Shown here piece after piece: positions 6,061 through 41,656 of a stretch of DNA of 64,000 nucleotides (the stretch's first letter is position 1; every line of letters begins with the position of its first letter). A model generated the notes under the pieces. That model did no database searches. It saw only the letters and a program-made list of their open reading frames with translations, and was not told the DNA's origin. This DNA comes from Aureispira anguillae. GTDB taxonomy: Bacteria > Bacteroidota > Bacteroidia > Chitinophagales > Saprospiraceae. The stretch is taken from the NCBI RefSeq assembly GCF_026000115.1, contig NZ_AP026867.1, forward strand, positions 4,397,716 to 4,461,715, given 5' to 3'. A program made the translations under genes and the position numbers.

Positions 6061-6172
6061 ATCACCCTTAACCCTTATATATATATAAAGTAAAGAGTAT
6101 ATAGGGGGAAAGCGAATAAAAATCACAATCGACTGTAAATCAATAATTTGCATAGAGAAAGCGGAGCTTGAA

Positions 6173-6189
6173 TCCCTCCAGCTCCACTA
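6173..6189 (+). other. Attachment-site core A (tmRNA 3'-end-like)
   Basis: The 17-bp TCCCTCCAGCTCCACTA occurs here and again at 20839-20855, both just upstream of an integrase gene. It resembles the 3' end of tmRNA (AGCTCCAC near the terminus), a frequent integrase target. A 14-bp perfect hairpin (6192-6205 with 6213-6226) follows at once, as a shorter one does at the second site. Inverted TGAGACA/TGTCTCA motifs (6232-6238, 6255-6261) lie next and recur around the other site, possibly as integrase arm sites. ssrA itself is not in the window. Confidence 0.6.
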
Positions 6190-6308
6190 TCATACATAAA
6201 ACTCTAATTTTCAGAGTTTTATGTATTACATTGAGACATAATATAAATATCTTCTGTCTCATTGTTTTTTTGCTTTATATGCTATGGCGTAAAAAAGTTA
6301 AAAGAACA

Positions 6309-7358
6309 ATGATAAAAAAAAGTACGCCTAAGATATATACAGGCAAAAATTCTCTCTCTATCCGCTGGTTTGTTTACTACTTAGATGAAAAGGGCAAACG
6401 AATCAAAAAATACGGTGACATCAACAAATATTCTACCCTAAAAGGGCGAAAAGCAGCTGCGCAGCGCCTAGTTGATGAAATTCTACAAGTACACCTTAAA
6501 AAGTCCAATAAGAGCCTCTCACAAAAGATTTATGACGAACTAGAAAACAGGAAACCTACTTGGCGACCTAAAACCTACCAATGTAAAAAATCCAAGATTG
6601 ATATTTTTCTAAAATGGATGCAGCGCAAAAAATGGACGGAAGACAATGTTTATCAATTTTTCTTTGAATACCTTACCAAAGAAAAGAGAGTAGCTCCAAC
6701 GACTTATAATGATTATATCCGTTGCATTACTCAAGCACTTGGCTGGTGCGATCAACAGCAGCTCATGGAAGCCATTGAAAAACGAAAAGCTTCACCGACT
6801 CCAGCGGCATACTTTACCCAGAGCCAAAGAACATTTCTTAGCAATGCCATAAAAAATAGTAATCCTAATTTGTGGTTTTTTGTGCAGTTTGTGTATTACT
6901 GCTTTCTTCGACCTCGTGCGGAGCTGCGTTTGCTCAAGGTCGGGGACGTGATTTTGGAAGAACAAAAGATCTTAGTTCCTGCCAATATTGCCAAGAATAA
7001 AAAACAACAGTATGTGGCCATCCCAAACGCTTTCTTTCCTACGGTTGAGAAAAAGATAAGGAATCGAAACCCAAACGAATATTTGTTTCCTGGTAATCAT
7101 TATTTGTCTCCTACTGGTATGAATACTTTTGGACGGCAACACAGAGAGTTGTTAAAAGAATTGGGTTTTGATACAAGCCGCTATAAGTTGTATTCTTGGA
7201 AACATACGGGAGCTGTTGCTGCGGTCAAGGCTGGTATTCATATTAAGCAACTGCAAATTCAATTGCGCCATCATTCATTGGATCAGGTGGACGAATACTT
7301 GAGACAATTGGGCGTTTCTGATTTGGGGGATTTACGAGATAATTTTCCTTGTATTTAG
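6309..7358 (+). CDS. Tyrosine-type integrase of the middle element
   Basis: I start the protein at ATG 6309 (349 residues), because the longer frame from 6168 crosses the att core and the paralogue at 20964 starts at the same point (MIKK). It has an N-terminal arm-type domain, a SAM-like core-binding domain (residues ~85-165) and a catalytic domain. RPRAELRLL carries the first catalytic Arg, SWKHTG lies in the HxxR region (with Lys where Arg is usual), and LRHHSLDQVDEYLRQLG holds the Tyr nucleophile. It would recombine at the adjacent att core. A strong bidirectional terminator follows. Confidence 0.88.
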   Translation: MIKKSTPKIYTGKNSLSIRWFVYYLDEKGKRIKKYGDINKYSTLKGRKAAAQRLVDEILQVHLKKSNKSLSQKIYDELENRKPTWRPKTYQCKKSKIDIFLKWMQRKKWTEDNVYQFFFEYLTKEKRVAPTTYNDYIRCITQALGWCDQQQLMEAIEKRKASPTPAAYFTQSQRTFLSNAIKNSNPNLWFFVQFVYYCFLRPRAELRLLKVGDVILEEQKILVPANIAKNKKQQYVAIPNAFFPTVEKKIRNRNPNEYLFPGNHYLSPTGMNTFGRQHRELLKELGFDTSRYKLYSWKHTGAVAAVKAGIHIKQLQIQLRHHSLDQVDEYLRQLGVSDLGDLRDNFPCI

Positions 7359-9754: not shown

Positions 9755-10482
9755 TTATAAATATCATTCATTTGTATTGGGAATTGAATCCCATTTATGT
9801 CAGATTGATTTAGATGTTTATCTTCAAAATCTTTAACATGCTGTCTGAATAGCTCAACAGTTTCAATTTCGACATCATCCAATAAATCATAATTTTTATC
9901 AATTATATTAATAATTTTACGATTATTTGGAAGTAATGTTTTATGAATTTTTCTTATCCAGATATATGGCATTTCACTTTCAGGATTAAACCTTTGATCA
10001 GTCATTGGTCCATAAATATTAAAAACGGTTTTGTTTTCGACCATTAGTGGATTTAAGAGTTTTCTAACCTCCTTTCTGCTGGTGTAAGATTTTATATTGA
10101 AAAGATTATTTATTTTTTCAGAATGTTCTTTCTTCCAGAGACTAATTAACGAATCGGGGTATTGTTCCTCTGCCTTATCAATGATAGTATGGCAAGTAGG
10201 ACAAAGGAGAATTAAATTATCAAATTTCCCTCTATCTTCTTTTGTTAGAGTATTATTAGATCTTGGACCTTTATTACTCGCACTGAAAATATGAGCCATT
10301 TCAGCTATATGAAAACTGTCGTCACCAATTGAAAGAAATAAGCTTGCGTTACAATCAGGTTTTTGACAGTATCCACCTGAATCTGCAAATAATTGTAATT
10401 TTACATGTGCATTGGGCGACGCTTTTCCTCTATTACATCCCATAATTTTATTAGTTTTTGTGTTTTTAATTACAGCCAACAT
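9751..10482 (-). CDS. HNH endonuclease
   Basis: The 243-residue protein has a clear HNH fold in its first half: zinc ligands C39, C44, C94 and C97, and the catalytic triad H64 (MAHI), N89 (FDNL) and H98 (CPTCH). Residues ~125-243 are a separate, mostly helical domain with no known name. It is the first gene of the HNH / unknown / MNT operon and overlaps the next gene by 4 bp. HNH domains joined to unknown domains in islands are often DNA-cutting effectors of defence systems. The start is M1 or M14. Confidence 0.78.
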   Translation of the reverse strand: MLAVIKNTKTNKIMGCNRGKASPNAHVKLQLFADSGGYCQKPDCNASLFLSIGDDSFHIAEMAHIFSASNKGPRSNNTLTKEDRGKFDNLILLCPTCHTIIDKAEEQYPDSLISLWKKEHSEKINNLFNIKSYTSRKEVRKLLNPLMVENKTVFNIYGPMTDQRFNPESEMPYIWIRKIHKTLLPNNRKIINIIDKNYDLLDDVEIETVELFRQHVKDFEDKHLNQSDINGIQFPIQMNDIYK

Positions 10483-10701
10483 GTGTATAAATACAATAGT
10501 CCTATTTATTTCTAATATAGTTAGCCCCTAAAGTATTAAAAACCCTAAAGGATTAGAAAAAAAATTCAAGTTTCATAAAAAAACAGATGTATTTTTCAGT
10601 TATTTTTTTATCCCTAGGTAAGATTTAAATATACCTTAAATAGCAGTTTAATTTGTCTTATACCTTGTTTATCAACTAATAGATACACTCGAATGAAATA
10701 C

Positions 10702-10730
10702 AAAAAAAGCCACCTCAAATGAGATGGCTT
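10702..10730 (-). terminator. Intrinsic terminator of the middle-element operon
   Basis: Read on the minus strand, an 11-bp stem (10720-10730 with 10707-10717, one G-T wobble, 2-nt loop) is followed by a run of T (10708-10702). It lies 32 bp beyond the stop of the GIY-YIG gene and would end the long leftward operon. The rest of the gap 10483-10761 is AT-rich with no gene. Confidence 0.8.
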
Positions 10731-10761
10731 CAAAAAAATACAAATCCAATAAAACTATACA

Positions 10762-11193
10762 CTAACTATCGCTTTTATGTTCCCCTACTTTATCAAATAC
10801 AGATTGTTCCTGGTACGCATTTAAAATTCGCTTACGCTGCTTTTTTTCAACCTTCGATAGTTTCCTTGGTTTGTAATTGGTATTTAGTTGAGGTTGAAAG
10901 AAATTTCTTAAATAGATGTATGTCATTGTTGACATATAGATATGAGAGCTGGTCAATATTTCAAAACTAAAATCTTTATTCGACTCCTGTACTAGCTTGC
11001 CTTGGCTCTGAAATAAGCGCATTATCGTACAATATAAGTTGATACTTCTACCAATGTACAAAACCTCCTTTTCCCCTTTTTTACGAATTAAAAAAATACC
11101 TGCTATGGCTCTAAATCTGCCGAGCTGTTCTTGTTCAATTGGTTCATGAACGGTTATTGTATTTGTCTCTATTATTCTAAGTGGCTCATTCAT
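10762..11193 (-). CDS. GIY-YIG domain protein
   Basis: The 143-residue protein carries a GIY-YIG-like core: GIF at 32-34 and YIGRS at 46-50, followed by an Arg-containing helix (IMRLFQ) and the late PQLN motif. I do not see the usual catalytic Glu before PQLN, so activity is uncertain. GIY-YIG nucleases cut DNA in repair, restriction and homing. It is the last gene of the leftward operon of the middle element and may process replication intermediates or be structural only. Confidence 0.65.
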   Translation of the reverse strand: MNEPLRIIETNTITVHEPIEQEQLGRFRAIAGIFLIRKKGEKEVLYIGRSINLYCTIMRLFQSQGKLVQESNKDFSFEILTSSHIYMSTMTYIYLRNFFQPQLNTNYKPRKLSKVEKKQRKRILNAYQEQSVFDKVGEHKSDS

Positions 11194-20838: not shown

Positions 20839-20855
20839 TCCCTCCAGCTCCACTA
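20839..20855 (+). other. Attachment-site core B (tmRNA 3'-end-like)
   Basis: This is the second copy of the 17-bp core TCCCTCCAGCTCCACTA, identical to 6173-6189. A hairpin follows directly (20856-20868 with 20874-20886, one wobble). Motifs TGAGACA at 20756-20762 and 20768-20774, TGTCTCA at 20780-20786 and TGTCTC at 20922-20927 surround it, matching those at the first site. The region 6173-20855 is therefore a candidate excisable unit of about 14.7 kb. Confidence 0.6.
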
Positions 20856-20963
20856 AACTCCTTGATTACCAGATAATTAAGGAGTTATATATTTATTGAT
20901 ATTCCATTTAAATATCATTGTTGTCTCGTTTTGTATCCGAAGGGTAGAAAAAAGTTCAAAACA

Positions 20964-21721
20964 ATGATTAAAAAATTTTTGCCCCGAATATACTCGGGAA
21001 ACAATTCATTGGACGCTAGATGGTTCGTACTCTATCTTGATGAAAAAGGCAAAAAGAGAAAAAAGTACGGCAATATCAATCGCTTCAATACGCTCGAAGA
21101 ACGCCAAAAAGCAGCTCAAATTATTGCTGCTGAATTAAGACGAGCGCTTGCCATCCGATTTCAATCTAAATTTGAACGACAGATCTATAAAGAACTTGAG
21201 TTAAGAAAGTCTACTTGGCGACTCAAAACCTACCAGTGTAAAAAATCTAAAATTGGAATCTTTTTAAAATGGATGAAAACCAAAGAATGGACAGAGCAAA
21301 ATGTCTATAATTTTTTCTTTGAGCACCTCACGCATCAACGAACCATCAAGGAATCTACTTACAACGATTATATCAGGCATGTAAAAAATGCTTTGGAATG
21401 GTGCCAGCTTTCCCACCTAATTGAACCAATTAAGAAAGCAGGAGTATGTAGCCATTCCTGATGCTTTTTTTTCCTATTGTAGAACGTAAGGTTAGAGGGC
21501 GGAATCCAAATCATTATTTGTTTCCTGGAGTAAATGAACAAACTCCTACAGGCATGAATACTTATGGACGGCAACATCGCCTATTGCTCCAGAAATTAGG
21601 CTTTGATACGGACCGCTATAAAATGTATTCCTGGAAATATACGGGGACTGTTGCTGCTGTTCGTGCTGGTATTAATCTTAAAGATTTACAGATACAATTC
21701 TTCTTTGGAGGCTATTTTTAG
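20964..21721 (+). pseudogene. Decayed tyrosine integrase (second element)
   Basis: The 5' part (20964-21440) matches the intact integrase at 6309 closely from MIKK to the core-binding domain. About 100 residues are then missing, including the region of the first catalytic Arg. The sequence resumes as KQEYVAIPDAFF. A T run near 21463-21470 shifts the frame, and the rest reads PIVERKVRGRNPNHYLFPG onward. The C-terminus is cut before the Tyr motif and ends at 21721, where it meets the 3' end of the pentapeptide gene. SWKHTG has become SWKYTG. It cannot be active. Confidence 0.85.
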
Positions 21722-28411: not shown

Positions 28412-31400
28412 CTAAGCCACCCCACTATTCCCATTAATTCCTTCAATAATGCGAATAATTTTAGCTGCATCTGCGTGGTCAAAGATTCCTGTAATCCCTT
28501 GATCGTGCAAATTGGTAAAGGGCGCTTCAAAAAGTAGTTTCTTTTCGATCGTGCCATTTTTGGTTAAGTAAGTGATGATATTTTGAATAAAGGTCATCTG
28601 ATCGGCACGTAAATTCCCCACTTGCAAAAAATCTGCAAAAGCCTGATTGGCAGCAGCCTCGTCCAAGCCAAGAATACTTCTAACAAATTTGCCCAAGGGC
28701 TGTTCGCCATATTCTTTGACAAAATCATCCTTGGTACCTCGATTGGTTCCATCAAAAAGCATTTGCTCCAAAGCATTTAACTCTTCTGAGGTGATGGGTT
28801 GATTGGTTGCCAATTTTGAAATGGTGATGTTTTCCTTATTTTCTCGAATAAAGCGCTCTACTCGATTTTTGTAAATAGTCGTTCGATACCCCGTCAACGG
28901 TTCTACCACTTTGGTAACAGCTTCGGAGTCTTTTATATCCGTATACATGGGTTTAACCCCAGAAAGCTCTAAAAACTGCACCAACAATCGAATCTCTTCT
29001 CGCAATTGATCCAAGCGTTGATGGGTTAAGGCAGCATAAAAATCAGGGTTTTTCATTTGCTCGATCAAAGGCTGTGCTTGCAACACCTGTGGCACGGTGT
29101 ATTTTCGGCTCAACAATTCGGCAATGTTCATTAGATTTTCATAATATTTTTCCTCCGATGGCTTGCCTAACAATGCGGCCAAGTGCAACTTCAAAACCAT
29201 CAAATCAAAACGCCTTGCCCGCTCGCTAATCGCCTCAGGCTTGGGCAAATTTGCCAAATGCTCTTTGATAATGTATACATCGTCCGAACTGAGGTTGTTC
29301 CAACGTTCTCGTACCTTAAATACATCGACATGGCGCAACTGCATATCCACCTGAAAACGTCGTTCATCCAAGCCCTCAATTGCCCCATGCAATTGATCCA
29401 GCAATTTATGCGTCAAGGCAAGATTTTCTTCCGTTCCTGTTTCTTGTAGCAATTGACTTAGGTCCAAACGAGCCTCAAAAATTTGCTGTGTAATGGCTTT
29501 TATCGAACTGCTCTCCGCTCCTCTTGGATTCAATTCAAAAAATTCAAAGTTCTGACAAACATCAAAAATTAAGAAATATTCCTTGGGCGCATCTGGTCCA
29601 AAAACATCGGGACAAAGGCGAGTTCCCCTTCCTATCATCTGCCAAAACTTAGCATAAGAACGCACGATTTTGAAAAAGACCAAATTCAAAACTCTTGGCG
29701 CATCAATTCCTGTATCCATCATATCTACAGAAACCGCAATTTGGGGATTGTTTTCTACTTTGTGATCACAGAATTTTTTAATCAAACTCTGTGCATGCGA
29801 TACCTTATTGTGTACCATTGCAATAAAACCAGCAGGTGCCTCAGGATAACGTTTGGTAAAACATTCGACAATAAACGCTGCATGTTTTTGATTGACCGCA
29901 AAAATAATCGTCCGCCCCAATTTGTCCCCTCCTTCTATCTTTAAGCCCTGTTTCATCAGCTCATCCAATACCTTATTGACCGTGTCTTCATTAAACAGCC
30001 ATTTGTTCATGGCATTGGCTCGGATTTCTTCAGGATACAAGCCCGTTTTTCGATCGGTAAAGGTCGCTTCGTATTTTTTCTTATCGTCTTCGGATAACTC
30101 GCTGTACTTGATGCCTTCTCTTAAAAATTTAGTGGCTACACTAATCGTTTGATAGGGTTTTAGATAAGTGGGAACTGCTGCCTCCAAATCATAATTGAAG
30201 GTAGGATCATCATTGCTGCACTCAAACAATTCATAGGTATTGTGATCGATGCTGTCCTTGGGCGTAGCCGTCAAGCCGACAATCATGGCATCAAAATAAT
30301 CAAAAATTGCCTTGTAGCGATTGTAAACCGAGCGATGTGCCTCATCCACAATAATCAAATCAAAATGCCCCACTCCATAAAAACGTGTTTCATCTGTTCG
30401 GGCATGGTCAATGCGATTCATCATGCTTGGATAGGTGCTAAACACCAAACGAGTGGCATCGTCTTCTTTGTCTTCTGACAAATCTATGCTCGTCAAATTC
30501 GGCAAATGCTCTTTGAAGCTGTCCTGTGCTTGGCTGACCAAGGCATTTCGATCTGCCAAAAACAACACCCGTTTCACCCAATTGCATCGAAACAGCACAT
30601 CCACTAGAGCGGCTGCCGTTCTGGTCTTTCCACTGCCTGTTGCCATCACCAACAAACAATGGCGTTTATTACCGCTCAATCCTGTTGCGCCGTCCACCAC
30701 AAGACTTTCCGTTACTCGTTGAATGGCTTCCAACTGATACGGTCTTCCTACAATATCGGTATTAACAGTAGCCGTTCGAATGTCTAGGCGGCTTTTGCGG
30801 CGTTGGATCAACCACTGTAGGGCTTCCTTTTTGTAAAAACCATTAACGGGTCGATCGCTGCTGTAAAAAACATCGTCCCAAAGCATGGTTTCATAGCCAT
30901 TGGTATAAAAAATCACAGGGCGTTGTCCAAACATCTGCTCCAAGCAATTGGCATACAAAAAGGCTTGATGCCTCCCTGCGTCAGCTTCCACACTGGTTCG
31001 TTTGGCTTCGATCAGTGCCAAGGGCAAACCGTTGTCGTCCCAAAGTACATAATCGACAAAACCATTGCCCAAGGGGTTGTCCTTGGTTATTGGCATTCCC
31101 TGAACGGGAAACTCCAAATGGTAACCTGATTTTAGTTCGCTCCAACCTGCTTCCAACAAATCAACATCAATGAGATGCTTCCGTGTTTCGGCTTCGGTGT
31201 ACTCACTGGGCACCTTGGTTTGGCGGGTGGCTTTTTGTGCTTCTATGGCAGCTTTACTGGCGGTAATTTGGGCTTGATAAGCGATCAATGCTTCTTCGCT
31301 TTCCTGCGCTTTTTCGTAGGCCGCTGCTTTTTCTGCCAAGAGCTGTTGAATCTGCTCTTCTTGTCGCTTCTGCTCGGCTTCATATTCTGCTTGGATGCGC

Positions 31401-31846
31401 TTTAACTTTCGTTCTGCTGCGCCAACCTTGGGAATGATGGACTCGTCAAAATGCCCTGGCAACTGTGGTAAGATGCCACTGTATTCGTTGGCAAACCATT
31501 TTAAAAAACCAAATAGGTGCTTGATACTGATCAAGGCTTCTGCACTGCTTACTCGCCGACCGTAGTGTACGGCATTGTTGCCTTTTTTGCGAACAATGTA
31601 CAGCCCTTTTAGATGTACCTGCGGAACCAAGGCTTTAAATTCTTCTTGGTGCATTAGGTTGGCTAGGTCTTGATTGTAAGGCCAGTCCAAATAATGGGTG
31701 TTGTAAATCTCATGCACGCATTCTTCCAGTACCAAGCGACAATAACTGGCCGTGGAAACGGGTTCGGTTTTGATGCGCTGCTCGGCCTTGCTCATTTTGT
31801 TGTATAAGGAAAGCCATTCGTCTTTTAGAAAGTGGAAGTTGCTCAT
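28412..31846 (-). CDS. hsdR: Type I restriction endonuclease R subunit (HsdR)
   Basis: The 1144-residue protein has a DUF4145-like N-terminus (~1-115) and a coiled coil (~140-205). The HSDR_N nuclease domain carries D265 and EAK (280-282) of the PD-(D/E)xK site. The translocase follows, with Walker A ATGSGKT at 402-408, DEAH at 501-504, TATP at 526-529 and the later GRGTRLCPD motif. The C-terminal part resembles the EcoEI family. It uses ATP to pull in DNA and cuts unmethylated DNA with HsdM and HsdS. It is the last gene of the operon, 39 bp after hsdS. Confidence 0.95.
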   Translation of the reverse strand: MSNFHFLKDEWLSLYNKMSKAEQRIKTEPVSTASYCRLVLEECVHEIYNTHYLDWPYNQDLANLMHQEEFKALVPQVHLKGLYIVRKKGNNAVHYGRRVSSAEALISIKHLFGFLKWFANEYSGILPQLPGHFDESIIPKVGAAERKLKRIQAEYEAEQKRQEEQIQQLLAEKAAAYEKAQESEEALIAYQAQITASKAAIEAQKATRQTKVPSEYTEAETRKHLIDVDLLEAGWSELKSGYHLEFPVQGMPITKDNPLGNGFVDYVLWDDNGLPLALIEAKRTSVEADAGRHQAFLYANCLEQMFGQRPVIFYTNGYETMLWDDVFYSSDRPVNGFYKKEALQWLIQRRKSRLDIRTATVNTDIVGRPYQLEAIQRVTESLVVDGATGLSGNKRHCLLVMATGSGKTRTAAALVDVLFRCNWVKRVLFLADRNALVSQAQDSFKEHLPNLTSIDLSEDKEDDATRLVFSTYPSMMNRIDHARTDETRFYGVGHFDLIIVDEAHRSVYNRYKAIFDYFDAMIVGLTATPKDSIDHNTYELFECSNDDPTFNYDLEAAVPTYLKPYQTISVATKFLREGIKYSELSEDDKKKYEATFTDRKTGLYPEEIRANAMNKWLFNEDTVNKVLDELMKQGLKIEGGDKLGRTIIFAVNQKHAAFIVECFTKRYPEAPAGFIAMVHNKVSHAQSLIKKFCDHKVENNPQIAVSVDMMDTGIDAPRVLNLVFFKIVRSYAKFWQMIGRGTRLCPDVFGPDAPKEYFLIFDVCQNFEFFELNPRGAESSSIKAITQQIFEARLDLSQLLQETGTEENLALTHKLLDQLHGAIEGLDERRFQVDMQLRHVDVFKVRERWNNLSSDDVYIIKEHLANLPKPEAISERARRFDLMVLKLHLAALLGKPSEEKYYENLMNIAELLSRKYTVPQVLQAQPLIEQMKNPDFYAALTHQRLDQLREEIRLLVQFLELSGVKPMYTDIKDSEAVTKVVEPLTGYRTTIYKNRVERFIRENKENITISKLATNQPITSEELNALEQMLFDGTNRGTKDDFVKEYGEQPLGKFVRSILGLDEAAANQAFADFLQVGNLRADQMTFIQNIITYLTKNGTIEKKLLFEAPFTNLHDQGITGIFDHADAAKIIRIIEGINGNSGVA

Positions 31847-31885
31847 GTTGGTTTGGTTTATGGTTACTACATCTTGCTGTTTTGC

Positions 31886-33076
31886 TTATAAATCGCCTTT
31901 AAAGGCTTTTTGTAAGAGACAATTAAATAGGTTCTCGGATTCTGCTAAAGCGGCTTGGGCTTGGGCTTTTTGGGCTTCTATGTTTTTTATTTTTTCGGCA
32001 AATTGGTTTTGGAGGGTTATGGGGGGGAGGATTATTTCAAATTCTTGTAGTGATTCTTTTGTTATTGCTTCTCTCGTAGCCCCTCCTTTTAGACTAATTC
32101 CCAATAATTTACTCTTACAATTAGTAGAAATTAATAAATGACTTAGAAAAATTGAATTTAATTGTCCTTCCACTGGTCGAAGAATCGCTACATGTTGATT
32201 TACCCTAGCTGGAAGAATTTCATTAGGAACGATTGTACATCTGCAAACAGAAGCTCCTGTAATATTAAAGAGAACATCTTGTTCTTGAACAATTACATTT
32301 TTTAATTTGTTCGCCTGACTATCATCAATAAATGCCAAGTCTTTATATTGAAAATAATTATCATAAACATTCATACTTCTTATTAAAGAAATTCCATTCT
32401 TTTTATAAGATTCTTTTCCTCCTTTTGGTGTTGCACCACTTCCTATTTTTGAATTACAATTTTTCAACTTCACCATATCCCACCCCATAGGATTCACCAC
32501 AGGGTCCCCAAACATATCCAAAAACAAACTCTTTGTCAAGGCATCGTATTCCGCTAGGATTTGCTGATTGAGTTGGCGCAATTGATCGGCTTGGTCTAGG
32601 ATATTGGCAATGCGTTTTTGCTCTGCTAGTGGAGGGAGGGGGATTTTAGATTCCTTTATTATTCTATCTGATACAGCAGGATAGCTTGCCCCACTTGCTT
32701 TATTGGTCATATCTTTAATAAAAAAAGGAGATTGAACCCAATAAAATAGATATTTCGAATTAAGATTTTCCTTAGGTCGTAATACACAATATCCCGTTGA
32801 AGCAGTAGCAAACTTATATTGTTTTGATACTAATGCCACTCCATTTAAATTAGGCCGAACAGTAGAAACAAGAACATCATTTACATGAATAAGTTGTCTT
32901 GCTCTACTAGGGGCTTCTATTCCTAATAGTCTACAAACCAAACTATCATTAATCTCTTTGGTATTTTTGTCCACTGAACTTAAATCTATATAATCAAATT
33001 CATTAGTAGATAAATCTTTTTTAGGATTCCATGTCTGAATTTTTTCAATCTCATCATTAATCTGCACCTTTTCCAT
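31886..33076 (-). CDS. hsdS: Type I restriction specificity subunit (HsdS)
   Basis: The 396-residue protein has two target-recognition domains, each followed by a conserved helix. The first ends in PLPPLAEQKRIANILDQ; the second in ILPPITLQNQFAEKI and an Ala/Gln-rich helix. It binds the two half-sites and sets the methylation and restriction target. I start at the ATG at 33076, which overlaps the hsdM stop by one base (TGATG); a GTG at 33079 is possible. Confidence 0.92.
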   Translation of the reverse strand: MEKVQINDEIEKIQTWNPKKDLSTNEFDYIDLSSVDKNTKEINDSLVCRLLGIEAPSRARQLIHVNDVLVSTVRPNLNGVALVSKQYKFATASTGYCVLRPKENLNSKYLFYWVQSPFFIKDMTNKASGASYPAVSDRIIKESKIPLPPLAEQKRIANILDQADQLRQLNQQILAEYDALTKSLFLDMFGDPVVNPMGWDMVKLKNCNSKIGSGATPKGGKESYKKNGISLIRSMNVYDNYFQYKDLAFIDDSQANKLKNVIVQEQDVLFNITGASVCRCTIVPNEILPARVNQHVAILRPVEGQLNSIFLSHLLISTNCKSKLLGISLKGGATREAITKESLQEFEIILPPITLQNQFAEKIKNIEAQKAQAQAALAESENLFNCLLQKAFKGDL

Positions 33077-34551
33077 CACCCCAACAATTTTTCAAGTTCC
33101 ACTAAAACAGCCAAACGCTCTTGATCCAAGCCCTTAATCTTTTTAATAATCTCCTTGGGTGGATCATAAGCCACCTCCTCATAGACAATCTCCTTATAGC
33201 GATTGATGCTAAGGTCCCAATCGTTTTCCTTGATTTCATCCAAAGGCACCAAAAAACTTTGGTCGGTACGCTTGCGCTCCCCTTCCCCTTCTAGGTGATG
33301 AAAACGCTGGATGATGTCGGGAATGTCATTGGCTTCCGTTTCCGTGCGCTTATCGTTGAGCGTATAACCATCTGCCTGCATATCGTAGAACCAAACCTTG
33401 TCCGTTCCTCCACTGTTTGTTTTGGTAAAAAAGAGTACCGCCGTGCTCACACCAGCATAAGGCTTAAAGACCCCACTTGGCATAGAAATCACTGCTTCTA
33501 GCTTTTGCTGCTCCACAATATTTTGGCGAATCTGCTTGTGTGCTTTTGAGCTGCCAAACAAAACCCCATCAGGGATAATCACCGCACAGCGTCCGCCCAC
33601 TTTGAGCATGCGCAACATCAAGCCCAAGAAAAGCAGTTCTGTTTTTTTGGTTTTTACCGTCTTAAGAATCGATTCCTCTACAGCATCATAATCCAAGCTT
33701 CCTTTAAAGGGTGGATTCGCCAGAATCAAGGTATAGGCATCGTTGATGTCGCCATTTCCTTTGCTTAAGGCATCCTTGCCAATGAGATTTGGGCTTTCAA
33801 TGCCGTGCAATTGTAGGTTCATTGCCCCAATCCGCAACATGGTGGGATCAAACTCTATCCCATTAAACATTTGACTGTTGTAATGCGCTCGAAAGTCCTT
33901 TTCCAAAAACCAATCGGGATGCTGCTCATGCACGTACTCCCCTGCTGCGACCAAAAACCCTGCTGAACCACAAGAAGGGTCACAAATGATTTCTTCCTTG
34001 CTGGGCTGCACCATGTCTACCATCATTTTGATGATGTGTCGAGGCGTACGAAACTGCCCATTGGTGCCTGCGGTGGCAATCTTCGACAATAAGTACTCGT
34101 ACAAGTCGCCTTTGGTGTCTCGATCGTCCATTTGGATTTTGTCGATCATCTGCACCACCTGATCCAATAAGCGAGGCGTAGGAATCATAAAGGTGGCTCC
34201 TTTCATGTACTTGGCAAAAACGCCTGCTTTTTCTCCAATCTGCTTCATGTGCTCAAAAACCGTCAAGTCGTCTACTTGTGGCTTGACAAATAAATCAAAC
34301 ATATCTTCTGGTGCTCGGTTCTTAAAATTGGACCAACGCAAACTGGCTTGTGCTTCGGTATACAAAGGGTTTTGCACAGAACTGCCGATCAACACTGCTT
34401 TTTTTTCTTCTCTCAATTGCCGCTCGTCCAATCGACGAATAAAGAGCAAAAAGGTAAATTGCTCAATTACGGTCAAGGGATTAGATATTCCTCCTGTCCA
34501 AAAGGCTTCCCATATCTTGTCAACTTGTGACTTCAGTTCTCCTGTTATCAT
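33076..34551 (-). CDS. hsdM: Type I N6-adenine DNA methyltransferase (HsdM)
   Basis: The 491-residue protein has an N-terminal HsdM_N domain and a methyltransferase core with the AdoMet motif DPSCGSAGFL at 191-200 and the catalytic NPPF at 279-282. It methylates adenine at the sites chosen by HsdS. It is the first gene of the hsdM-hsdS-hsdR operon and looks complete, so the system is probably active. Upstream (34552-34794) I see only degenerate sequence. Confidence 0.95.
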   Translation of the reverse strand: MITGELKSQVDKIWEAFWTGGISNPLTVIEQFTFLLFIRRLDERQLREEKKAVLIGSSVQNPLYTEAQASLRWSNFKNRAPEDMFDLFVKPQVDDLTVFEHMKQIGEKAGVFAKYMKGATFMIPTPRLLDQVVQMIDKIQMDDRDTKGDLYEYLLSKIATAGTNGQFRTPRHIIKMMVDMVQPSKEEIICDPSCGSAGFLVAAGEYVHEQHPDWFLEKDFRAHYNSQMFNGIEFDPTMLRIGAMNLQLHGIESPNLIGKDALSKGNGDINDAYTLILANPPFKGSLDYDAVEESILKTVKTKKTELLFLGLMLRMLKVGGRCAVIIPDGVLFGSSKAHKQIRQNIVEQQKLEAVISMPSGVFKPYAGVSTAVLFFTKTNSGGTDKVWFYDMQADGYTLNDKRTETEANDIPDIIQRFHHLEGEGERKRTDQSFLVPLDEIKENDWDLSINRYKEIVYEEVAYDPPKEIIKKIKGLDQERLAVLVELEKLLG

Positions 34552-34794
34552 GTATGTTTTATTCTGTTTTGGTCTAAATCAGTTTAGTAATTATACTAAT
34601 AAATATTTATATTTTCTATAAAAGGTTGAGATGCTTTTTTAGTAAGTATTCTGTTTTTCTGTCAATCTCATCGTTTGTTGCTTTTGGTCAAATTCTTGCC
34701 TCTGGTAAATCTTTTTTGAAGGGCGAAACTAAAAAAAGCTGCTTAATAATTGGTATTTGGAGGCAGTATATTAAAAAGCACTTAATAATAGCTA

Positions 34795-34940
34795 CTCTAC
34801 CCGACGGTTTTTAAAATTTAACAGCATGGGCTTTTTCTAGCTCTATCTTAGATATTAGATCTCAATTAAGTTGTAATTGGGATCTAAAAATAGATAGAAA
34901 CTGCCCCAATTTTAATTTTTGCAAAAATCATCGGGTAGAG
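34795..34940. mobile_element. MITE-like element, copy 1
   Basis: This 146-bp element begins CTCTACCCGACGGTTTTTAA and ends with the inverse, AATCATCGGGTAGAG. Its centre is a hairpin built on AGATC and CAATTAAGTTGTAATTGGGATCT. No coding capacity. Copy 2 at 41159-41339 shares both ends and the central hairpin in the opposite orientation. It is probably moved in trans by a transposase not in this window. I cannot fix a target-site duplication. Confidence 0.72.
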
Positions 34941-35034
34941 AAAATAATAGCACTTTACAGATATATTTTTTATTTTTAATTGAGTTTATAACTCACCCCT
35001 AAAGTCCCCCCTTAACCACTCAAATAACATAATT

Positions 35035-36288
35035 ATGACAACAGCATTCAAACAAGCTCTTGAAGAACTTCAACTCAACCTCAATCGTTGGCTACAACTA
35101 GCCGATAGCAATTCATTAAAAAGAGATACCGCTTCTAGGTATAAGACACTGTTAACCACCATAGATACTGCACTAAACACCTCCAATAAGCCTTTTCAAG
35201 TTTTTGTCAAAAACTATACGGGAAAAACCTATACCTTAGATGTCTCTTCCGATGATTCTGTTCCCGAAATTAAATCCAAGATAGAGGATAAATTAGGGGT
35301 TCCTGCAAGCGAACAACGTTTAATTGTTGCGGGTAAACAGCTCGATGATAATAAGTCTGCCAGTGCTTATCAACTTCAAAAAGAATCTACCATTCACGTA
35401 GTATTGAGCTTAAAAGGAGGTGATCCTTTTTATGTCTTATGTACTACATTAGGGATTATCGCTATACCAACCATGATTTGGTTAATAGGTAAATGTGGTT
35501 CAAGAAAAAAAGCAAAAGATTATTTAGAGGAAAATGCTTCTAACGACGAGGTATTGAACCGACTTAGAAATAAAAATAAAGAGGAGCTTTCTTCAGAAGA
35601 TGAAACTATTGTAGATAAAAAGGAGAAGCAGAAAGATAAAATTAAGATAGAGACTTTAACGGCAAGTTCTTCTAACGCAAGTGGTAATTTCCCTTCAGAA
35701 GAAGAAAAGAAAGAAGAGAAAAAAATGATTAAAGTAAAGGATCTAGGGAGTCCTATGATACTAGCATACTCTCCTAAATTCTTTGATTTTACCAATAAAA
35801 AAGCTAGGGAAATAGCTGAAATAATACTCCAAACATTCAAGGATGAAGATCGAGAATTTGACTCTAAGGAAGATATAATTGCCGCTGTTAAGAAACATCC
35901 TGACATTCAAAAGGCATTAGGATTAGACAAAGAAATCAAACAATTGCAATCAACAATTGTAGAGGATTGTAGCCGTTATGGTTCTAAACTCGATGCTTTG
36001 ACGGAATATGATGTAAAACATGGAATCTGGGAACAGATTACAGAAGGGAACAAAATCAGACCTGAAGGAGATTATCAATTAGTGGTTAAGATTAACTCTG
36101 AAACGTACAAGTATCATGTCCATGCTCCTAGCTTTCCCAAGCAGCCCCCAATACCAGGAGAAGTAATGACAAAATATGGTATGTCTGGCACTCAAACCTC
36201 AAGTGCCGTAATAAAAGCTATTCTTAAATATCATCCTAGACCTGATTGTTGGGATAAAGAAATTGTATTATCTCGAAAGAAAGATTAA
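35035..36288 (+). CDS. Ubiquitin-domain membrane protein
   Basis: The 417-residue protein has four parts. Residues ~1-50 are helical. Residues 54-129 are a ubiquitin domain, 42 of 76 positions identical to human ubiquitin by my own alignment. All seven lysines are kept (K59, K64, K80, K82, K86, K101, K116 for K6, 11, 27, 29, 33, 48, 63), as are Ile44, His68, Val70 and the terminal LKGG. A membrane span follows at once (~131-151), then a charged linker and a 150-residue C-terminal region of unknown fold. No E1, E2, E3 or deubiquitinase gene is in the window. I infer acquisition from a eukaryote and use as a membrane-anchored or cleavable ubiquitin. Confidence 0.88.
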   Translation: MTTAFKQALEELQLNLNRWLQLADSNSLKRDTASRYKTLLTTIDTALNTSNKPFQVFVKNYTGKTYTLDVSSDDSVPEIKSKIEDKLGVPASEQRLIVAGKQLDDNKSASAYQLQKESTIHVVLSLKGGDPFYVLCTTLGIIAIPTMIWLIGKCGSRKKAKDYLEENASNDEVLNRLRNKNKEELSSEDETIVDKKEKQKDKIKIETLTASSSNASGNFPSEEEKKEEKKMIKVKDLGSPMILAYSPKFFDFTNKKAREIAEIILQTFKDEDREFDSKEDIIAAVKKHPDIQKALGLDKEIKQLQSTIVEDCSRYGSKLDALTEYDVKHGIWEQITEGNKIRPEGDYQLVVKINSETYKYHVHAPSFPKQPPIPGEVMTKYGMSGTQTSSAVIKAILKYHPRPDCWDKEIVLSRKKD

Positions 36289-41074: not shown

Positions 41075-41158
41075 AATTTGGTTTTAATTTGATTTGATAA
41101 AATATAAGCGTATTAAAAATATCAAGTTATTTATAGTTTGGGATGACTTAACTTATTT

Positions 41159-41339
41159 CTCTACCCGATGATTTTTGTAAAAATTAAAATCAAGACAGCT
41201 TTTATTTATTTTTAGATCGCTTTGCTCTTCGAAATTAGATATTAGATCCCAATTAAGTTGTAATTGGGATCTAATATCTAAGAGTGAAACGATCTAGGGT
41301 CTAAGCATTTTGTTAAATTTTTAAAACCGTCGGGTAGAG
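41159..41339. mobile_element. MITE-like element, copy 2
   Basis: This 181-bp element starts CTCTACCCGATGATTTTTG and ends AAAACCGTCGGGTAGAG, the same ends as copy 1 in the opposite order. Its core is TTAGATCCCAATT/AATTGGGATCTAA, a perfect 13-bp hairpin with a 6-nt loop. It is longer than copy 1 by ~35 bp on both sides of the hairpin. It lies in the gap 41075-41656, which holds no gene. Confidence 0.72.
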
Positions 41340-41656
41340 TATTAACTTATTATAAAATTGCACCAAATAAGAAAAGTACATATAACCATTTTTTTTCTTT
41401 TTTTACATTCCTAAAATCAAAACAACATCATAATTAATTGAAAATCTTTTACTTATAGAATTACAAAATCTTTTTTTTACGAAACAATCTTTATCAAAAC
41501 TAATCCTTGGGTCATCAATCGCAATCCTTGGTAAATAAACATTTTCGTTCTTCAACACTTTACCTGTTTCTAACTAACCTACTATGGTTCTCTCCTCTAT
41601 TTCAGATAAATTGGTTAATTTAGCCCCCCTAAAACAAACGATAAAAATCAAAACTC

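Follow-up and report, generated by a model that had tools for sequence, protein, structure and literature searches.

A gene of Aureispira anguillae (Saprospiraceae) encodes a 417-aa protein in which a ubiquitin domain that has kept its terminal GG is followed by a hydrophobic span, a charged linker, and an orphan C-terminal domain. We propose, with a probability of roughly 0.35, that it is a modular ubiquitin-GG-cargo protein whose destination is a different cell, one equipped with ubiquitin machinery: a eukaryotic prey, host, or competitor. This reading fits the retention of GG over wide divergence before two unrelated regions (in this protein and in a paralog), together with the lack of an exported form and of recognised ubiquitin machinery. 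The open reading frame with its ubiquitin domain is real and under selection. A sequence-only reading of the same DNA, which had described a near-canonical ubiquitin domain joined to a membrane anchor, is partly supported by our analysis.

Layout of the gene and its neighbourhood

The gene lies in a window of 64,000 nucleotides, the whole stretch of DNA analysed here, which is part of a 7.58-Mb contig in a 7.79-Mb genome. The features of the locus, in window coordinates, are the following.

34793..34943, + strand: MITE-like element copy 1, just upstream of the gene, with the shared 24-nt end
34953..36285, + strand: stretch 75-78% similar at the DNA level to the locus of Aureispira sp. CCB-E, the similarity stopping near the gene's own borders
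35035..36288, + strand: coding sequence of 417 aa, running from the helical N-terminal region through the ubiquitin domain with GG, the hydrophobic span, and the charged linker to the orphan C-terminal domain
35035..35193, + strand: N-terminal region, residues 1-53, two predicted helices (model pLDDT blocks 61-73)
35194..35421, + strand: ubiquitin domain, residues 54-129 (PF00240, PDB search, model, dN/dS 0.12)
35416..35421, + strand: GG at ubiquitin positions 75-76, then Asp-Pro; common to the ortholog and the paralog
35428..35490, + strand: hydrophobic span, residues 132-152, by hydropathy, then a Lys/Arg-rich stretch
35491..35700, + strand: charged linker, residues 153-222, shorter in the ortholog
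35719..36285, + strand: C-terminal domain, residues 229-417, present in 2 of 298 same-family genomes
41156..41341, - strand: MITE-like element copy 2, inverted, with the shared 24-nt end

By eye, residues 1-53 show no signal peptide, and they are partly alignable to the paralog. The hydropathy of the span over 19 residues is 2.05 in this protein and 2.10 in the ortholog, and the linker behind it is basic first and then charged before the C-terminal region begins. The succession of GG, Asp-Pro, and a hydrophobic span from residue 132 bears out the earlier suggestion that the layout resembles either a ubiquitin precursor or a fixed, membrane-bound ubiquitin.

A type I restriction-modification set (R, S, and M; window 28412-34551) lies upstream; of the proteins encoded downstream, one carries a T9SS sorting tail and another lacks a Pfam match. 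No ORF of at least 80 aa was found between the gene and the next downstream gene, which is on the other strand. An anti-phage role suggested by the adjoining restriction set was considered and rejected, as the protein had no PADLOC match and the flanks of the ortholog are unrelated. The two MITE-like copies that had been said to flank the locus are both real, as judged from their common 24-nt end (0 and 1 mismatches; 0.00 matches expected), and the ORF lists put three genes between them, of which this gene is one.

The ubiquitin domain and the orphan C-terminal region

Residues 54-129 align without gaps to human ubiquitin at 42 of 76 identical positions. Our recount confirmed this figure from the sequence-only reading, and no more than 15 of 76 were reached in 20,000 shuffles of these residues. 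The Pfam ubiquitin profile PF00240 matched the protein over profile positions 1-71 of 72 with 79 bits (E 2.3e-22), above the cut-off of 25.4, and the top matches of a PDB sequence search were ubiquitin chains. A predicted model of residues 1-152, built from a three-row alignment, had a pLDDT of about 80 across the domain, and its best 50 PDB matches in Foldseek were ubiquitin or its complexes (E 3e-11 to 5e-10); the modelled fold is not independent of homology, since the other two alignment rows are ubiquitins. Profile, PDB matches, and model place the domain in the ubiquitin family, with a predicted beta-grasp fold.

In the alignment to human ubiquitin, the seven lysines, the I44-H68-V70 patch, and GG are all kept, as had been noted before; the ortholog has Thr at position V70. 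The domain differs at L8, replaced by Tyr, and at R72, replaced by Ser, both of them residues that ubiquitin's partners use. Given that 8 of the 10 scored non-Aureispira rows are closer to human ubiquitin (50-67 of 76 positions identical, against 42), the description "near-canonical" does not hold. The same 8 in 10, counted among scored bacterial PF00240 rows, gives no support to the view that most bacterial ubiquitin-like proteins are far more diverged.

The C-terminal region (residues 229-417) matched no Pfam family at E values up to 1 and nothing in NCBIfam, its best PDB match had an E value of 0.29, and PHROG matches of the tail alone were at 0.08 or worse. A weak match (E 0.0079) of residues 129-202 to phrog_33799, a phage membrane protein, covers the span and the charged linker and is taken as a match of composition. 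A single-sequence AlphaFold prediction of the tail reached a pLDDT of 50 and a pTM of 0.31, too low to serve for a fold search. The E2-like look once ascribed to the tail found no support in Pfam, NCBIfam, PDB, or PHROG and was rejected on that ground. No relatives of the tail were found in viral contigs, and the Pfam, NCBIfam, PHROG, and PADLOC scans of the protein matched no toxin family. The two same-family genomes that carry the region are that of A. anguillae itself and that of Aureispira sp. CCB-E (G127).

An ortholog shows the gene to be mobile and in use

The ortholog in Aureispira sp. CCB-E (L008, from 9987) is 69% identical, carries LQGG, and shares both the span and the C-terminal region with the window protein; its open frame is 389 aa long, of which 388 are aligned (9987-11150). 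It is present in one of eight other same-genus genomes searched, and the gene was found in 2 of 60 genomes searched, the window's own included. The whole protein as query had no relatives in the phages searched and one in the plasmids searched, from Ruminococcus albus, covering query residues 40-128 only. The flanks of the gene and of its ortholog are unrelated. Near the ortholog are an integrase and, by eye, a transposase-like frame, and about 20 bases past its stop is a piece 82% identical to window 6168-7358, the site of an integrase gene to which window 20842-21053 is also related. With this narrow presence in the genus, the unrelated flanks, and the integrase by the ortholog, the gene is accessory and mobile. 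An assembly artefact, a doubt raised earlier, is ruled out by the 7.58-Mb contig and by the occurrence of the ortholog in a second genome matching a separately deposited strain; 15 kb of that genome's second contig are 100% identical to plasmid NZ_CP133672.1 of Aureispira sp. CCB-E.

For the ortholog pair, dN/dS (NG86) was 0.29 over the 387 codons of the whole gene and lowest in the ubiquitin domain (0.12 over 76 codons), the values for the other parts being 0.32 (N-terminal region), 0.24 (span, 26 codons), 0.33 (linker, 37 codons), and 0.37 (residues 223-417). Between gene parts dS ranged from 0.36 to 0.89, and dN alone was slightly lower in the span (0.088) than in the ubiquitin domain (0.105). 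The gene is in use, and its ubiquitin part is among the most constrained.

A paralog keeps GG before a different region

The same genome encodes a second ubiquitin-domain protein (L009:10071-11816, 582 aa), which has LKGG and then a different region. Its ubiquitin domain and that of the window protein agree at 30 of 76 positions. The paralog keeps four of the seven ubiquitin lysines and has no hydrophobic span after GG; phmmer found no match between the regions that follow GG in the two proteins. The post-GG region of the paralog contains, by eye, a GNCG...DH arrangement with C186 and H268 and may be papain-like, while searches gave no clear family or PDB chain for it. Among 298 genomes, it occurs in its own alone.

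A contractile injection cluster is present in the A. anguillae genome (C1:5580715-5598431; L048/L049) and conserved in strain CCB-E (G127:C1:7137717-7155421), with the sheath and baseplate J assigned by Pfam and the other members by eye. Together with a co-directional 412-aa orphan, the paralog constitutes an insertion (L009:10071-13133; G000:C1:5613071-5616133) 14.6 kb from this cluster, on its 5′ side. The insertion is missing in the matching region of strain CCB-E, where the next segment is inverted. The chance of one gene falling within 14.6 kb of the cluster is 0.4%, a proximity noticed after the fact. We regard the link as weak, since the paralog is on the 5′ side, seven genes conserved in strain CCB-E lie in between, and some 1.1 Mb separate the window gene from the cluster. 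As for the marks of eCIS cargo, the window gene is neither in nor next to the cluster, and no DUF4157 appeared in the Pfam scans. In the eCIS-like cluster of either species there is one gene for a protein of roughly 790 aa (791 and 787 aa); the two genes occupy different places and show no mutual match at 1e-8.

Ubiquitin domains in other bacteria

PF00240 matched in 5 of 298 family genomes (4 over the cut-off), 6 of 395 phylum genomes (all 6 over it), and 3 of 395 class genomes (2 over it), the window genome being counted each time. The genome matches, a Prevotella contig, a Ruminococcus plasmid, and L042-L044 from IMG/VR (counted once) made up 12 distinct exported-looking sequences outside Aureispira. 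Two sequences below the PF00240 cut-off, L006 (a glycosyltransferase-like frame by eye) and L038, were excluded from the GG count, and three from IMG/VR (L039, L040, and L041), which by eye are eukaryotic or eukaryotic-virus ubiquitins, were excluded from the exported set. L039 and L040 keep GG, and L041 reaches its stop as LRLR; L040 has tandem ubiquitin domains, with the ends LRLRGG and LRLKGG.

GG at positions 75-76 was found in none of the 12 exported-looking bacterial sequences and in all three Aureispira proteins, a split with a chance of 1 in 455 if the rows were independent, which they are not, as the three Aureispira proteins represent two lineages. Judged by eye, 11 of the 12 carry an export-type hydrophobic segment directly before the domain, and L010, a long secreted protein, has it at its start; none is present in the three Aureispira proteins. 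All seven lysines are also present in L019, L020, L022, and L036, which look exported and are without GG.

Some of these sequences have further features. In L010 (6821-11755), the ubiquitin domain is part of a 1645-aa protein that also carries DUF285 and PKD repeats and ends in a T9SS sorting tail. L025 (9874-10813; G633) holds two adjacent small exported-looking ubiquitins, one of them ending in RTPPCN, with a Cys near its end, much as BfUbb has Cys as its last residue. On the mobilizable plasmid pRUMAL01 of Ruminococcus albus 7, a member of the Bacillota, L036 (4965-5705) encodes a protein that has a ubiquitin domain and begins with a signal-like segment, and so such proteins reach beyond the Bacteroidota.

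In a tree of 25 rows and 76 columns, the sole well-supported inner branch joined the window protein and its ortholog (99/99). Transfer from a eukaryote, which had been called likely, is plausible for bacterial ubiquitins this close to human ubiquitin, whereas the donor and the number of transfers are beyond the resolution of a 76-column tree.

Ubiquitin machinery in the genome

Our search for ubiquitin machinery covered four families, ThiF, UQ_con, UCH, and Prok-JAB. A single ThiF-family gene, MoeB-rhodanese-like by eye and far from the ubiquitin gene, is present in each of the two Aureispira genomes. UQ_con (E2) had no match in the genomes, but the search was also silent in 14 control genomes, so that it does not establish the absence of E2. 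The one UCH match in the window genome, at 13.9 bits, was below the cut-off and was discarded as a LytTR-type regulator by eye. Prok-JAB had no match in the window genome and two weak matches below the cut-off in strain CCB-E, of which the nearer to the ortholog, some 7 kb away, is a RadC (E 1.3e-34) and was rejected. The searches that were run recognised no full ubiquitin-attaching set in the window genome.

Possible roles of the protein

In a ubiquitin-GG-cargo protein, the ubiquitin domain would serve as a decoy or address tag for the ubiquitin-binding or deubiquitinating enzymes of the target cell. The likely event there would be a cut after GG, and the freed C-terminal part would begin with Asp-Pro and bring its own membrane anchor; an Asp after GG does not forbid cleavage. 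Delivery, cleavage, and an activity of the C-terminal domain are steps that we infer. The reading also draws on the low dN/dS of the ubiquitin domain, on the accessory and mobile nature of the gene, and, weakly, on the contractile injection cluster. Against the cargo reading, no delivery signal was seen in the window protein, L8Y and R72S (and Thr at V70 in the ortholog) change positions that matter to ubiquitin's partners, and L039 and L040 keep GG too. Aureispira is a predator of bacteria, which are not known to have a ubiquitin system of this kind, and GG may have been retained for other reasons. A narrower version, which we consider rather unlikely, makes the proteins a weapon triggered by host deubiquitinases: for lack of a deubiquitinase the precursors would remain closed in the bacterium, to be opened only inside eukaryotic targets by the targets' own deubiquitinases, releasing a cargo that would be membrane-anchored in the window protein and cysteine-peptidase-like in the paralog.

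The main rival, possible although doubtful, is a fixed, uncut ubiquitin on a membrane scaffold, whose fold would bind a partner on the bacterial surface or within the cell, with GG as a leftover. The span directly after the ubiquitin domain in both orthologs would suit such a scaffold, as would the Lys/Arg-rich stretch past the span, which suggests a defined topology, and the UCH and Prok-JAB searches of the window genome, which recognised no processing enzyme. The diverged paralog, however, keeps GG without such a span. Moreover, under the positive-inside rule, the 130-residue N-terminal part would face outside without a signal peptide, a poor fit for an ordinary inner-membrane protein. A neutral relic, in which a ubiquitin-coding piece became fused to a mobile gene and is itself unused, would account for the patchy distribution and the mobile surroundings; we think it very unlikely, as dN/dS is lower in the ubiquitin domain than in any other part of the gene.

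An antibacterial weapon like BfUbb, or a polymorphic toxin, in which the ubiquitin fold would aid killing and the C-terminal region would be the toxin, comes next and is unlikely. BfUbb antagonises other strains of Bacteroides fragilis according to PMC5705921, the window protein and the paralog differ in their C-terminal regions, and the paralog's Cys-His pair, assigned by eye, recalls papain-like toxins and is accompanied by the co-directional 412-aa neighbour. On the other hand, BfUbb has a signal sequence and no GG, according to PMC3352274, and neither is true of the window protein, for which the scans also gave no toxin family. Nor is there an ORF of at least 80 aa ahead of the opposite-strand gene downstream. 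Most improbable of all is a working ubiquitin-like modifier, released in Aureispira by a protease, and attached by an E1 and E2, that escaped recognition. The ortholog pair does keep the seven lysines and GG, but each genome has its single E1-like gene at a distance and gave no E2 match (with a weak control), the paralog has lost three lysines, and the exported-looking ubiquitins lacking GG keep their lysines too.

Comparison with known systems

In pestivirus polyproteins, ubiquitin insertions are cut by host enzymes. The window protein may follow a similar logic, a foreign protein being processed by the deubiquitinases of the target cell; it differs in being a stand-alone bacterial protein with a putative cleavage, as opposed to a virus polyprotein. 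GG-ended ubiquitin-like chemistry is known from bacteria in type II CBASS and Bil operons. Unlike in these systems, no E1, E2, or JAB gene was placed near the window gene, and none of the genome-wide ThiF, UQ_con, and Prok-JAB matches was close to it. Bacterial polyubiquitin operons and ubiquitin-like conjugation systems have E1, E2, and JAB partners, according to PMC11354881 and PMC10449767. Eukaryotic precursors, such as the ubiquitin-ribosomal protein and the algal fusions covered in PMC11354881, likewise have ubiquitin followed by another protein, whereas the window protein has an N-terminal extension and, behind ubiquitin, a membrane span and an unrelated part, and its genome yielded neither a UCH nor a Prok-JAB match above the cut-off.

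A further likeness is to BfUbb of B. fragilis, which is identical to human ubiquitin at 48 of 76 positions (against 42 in the window protein), whose signal-peptide cut site aligns with ubiquitin residue 1, and which has no GG (PMC3352274). Both are eukaryote-like ubiquitins of Bacteroidota that occur in only some strains; B. fragilis apparently lacks activating and conjugating enzymes (PMC3352274, PMC5705921), and in the window genome no full set was recognised. The window protein differs in that its domain is preceded by 53 residues without a long hydrophobic stretch or visible signal peptide and ends in GG, followed by the span and a further domain. The exported-looking set (L007 of Prevotella, L036, L019, L020, L023, and L037) resembles it in having a Pfam ubiquitin domain within a longer frame and differs by the export-type segment directly before the domain and the lack of GG. 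A literature search of partial coverage, preprints excluded, found no publication on GG-keeping ubiquitin-cargo proteins of Aureispira. The eukaryote-like bacterial ubiquitin described in PMC3352274, BfUbb, is exported and without GG. A ubiquitin that keeps GG before different cargo, when the searches of its genome recognised no complete conjugation set, points to the ubiquitin enzymes of another cell as its trigger or docking system.
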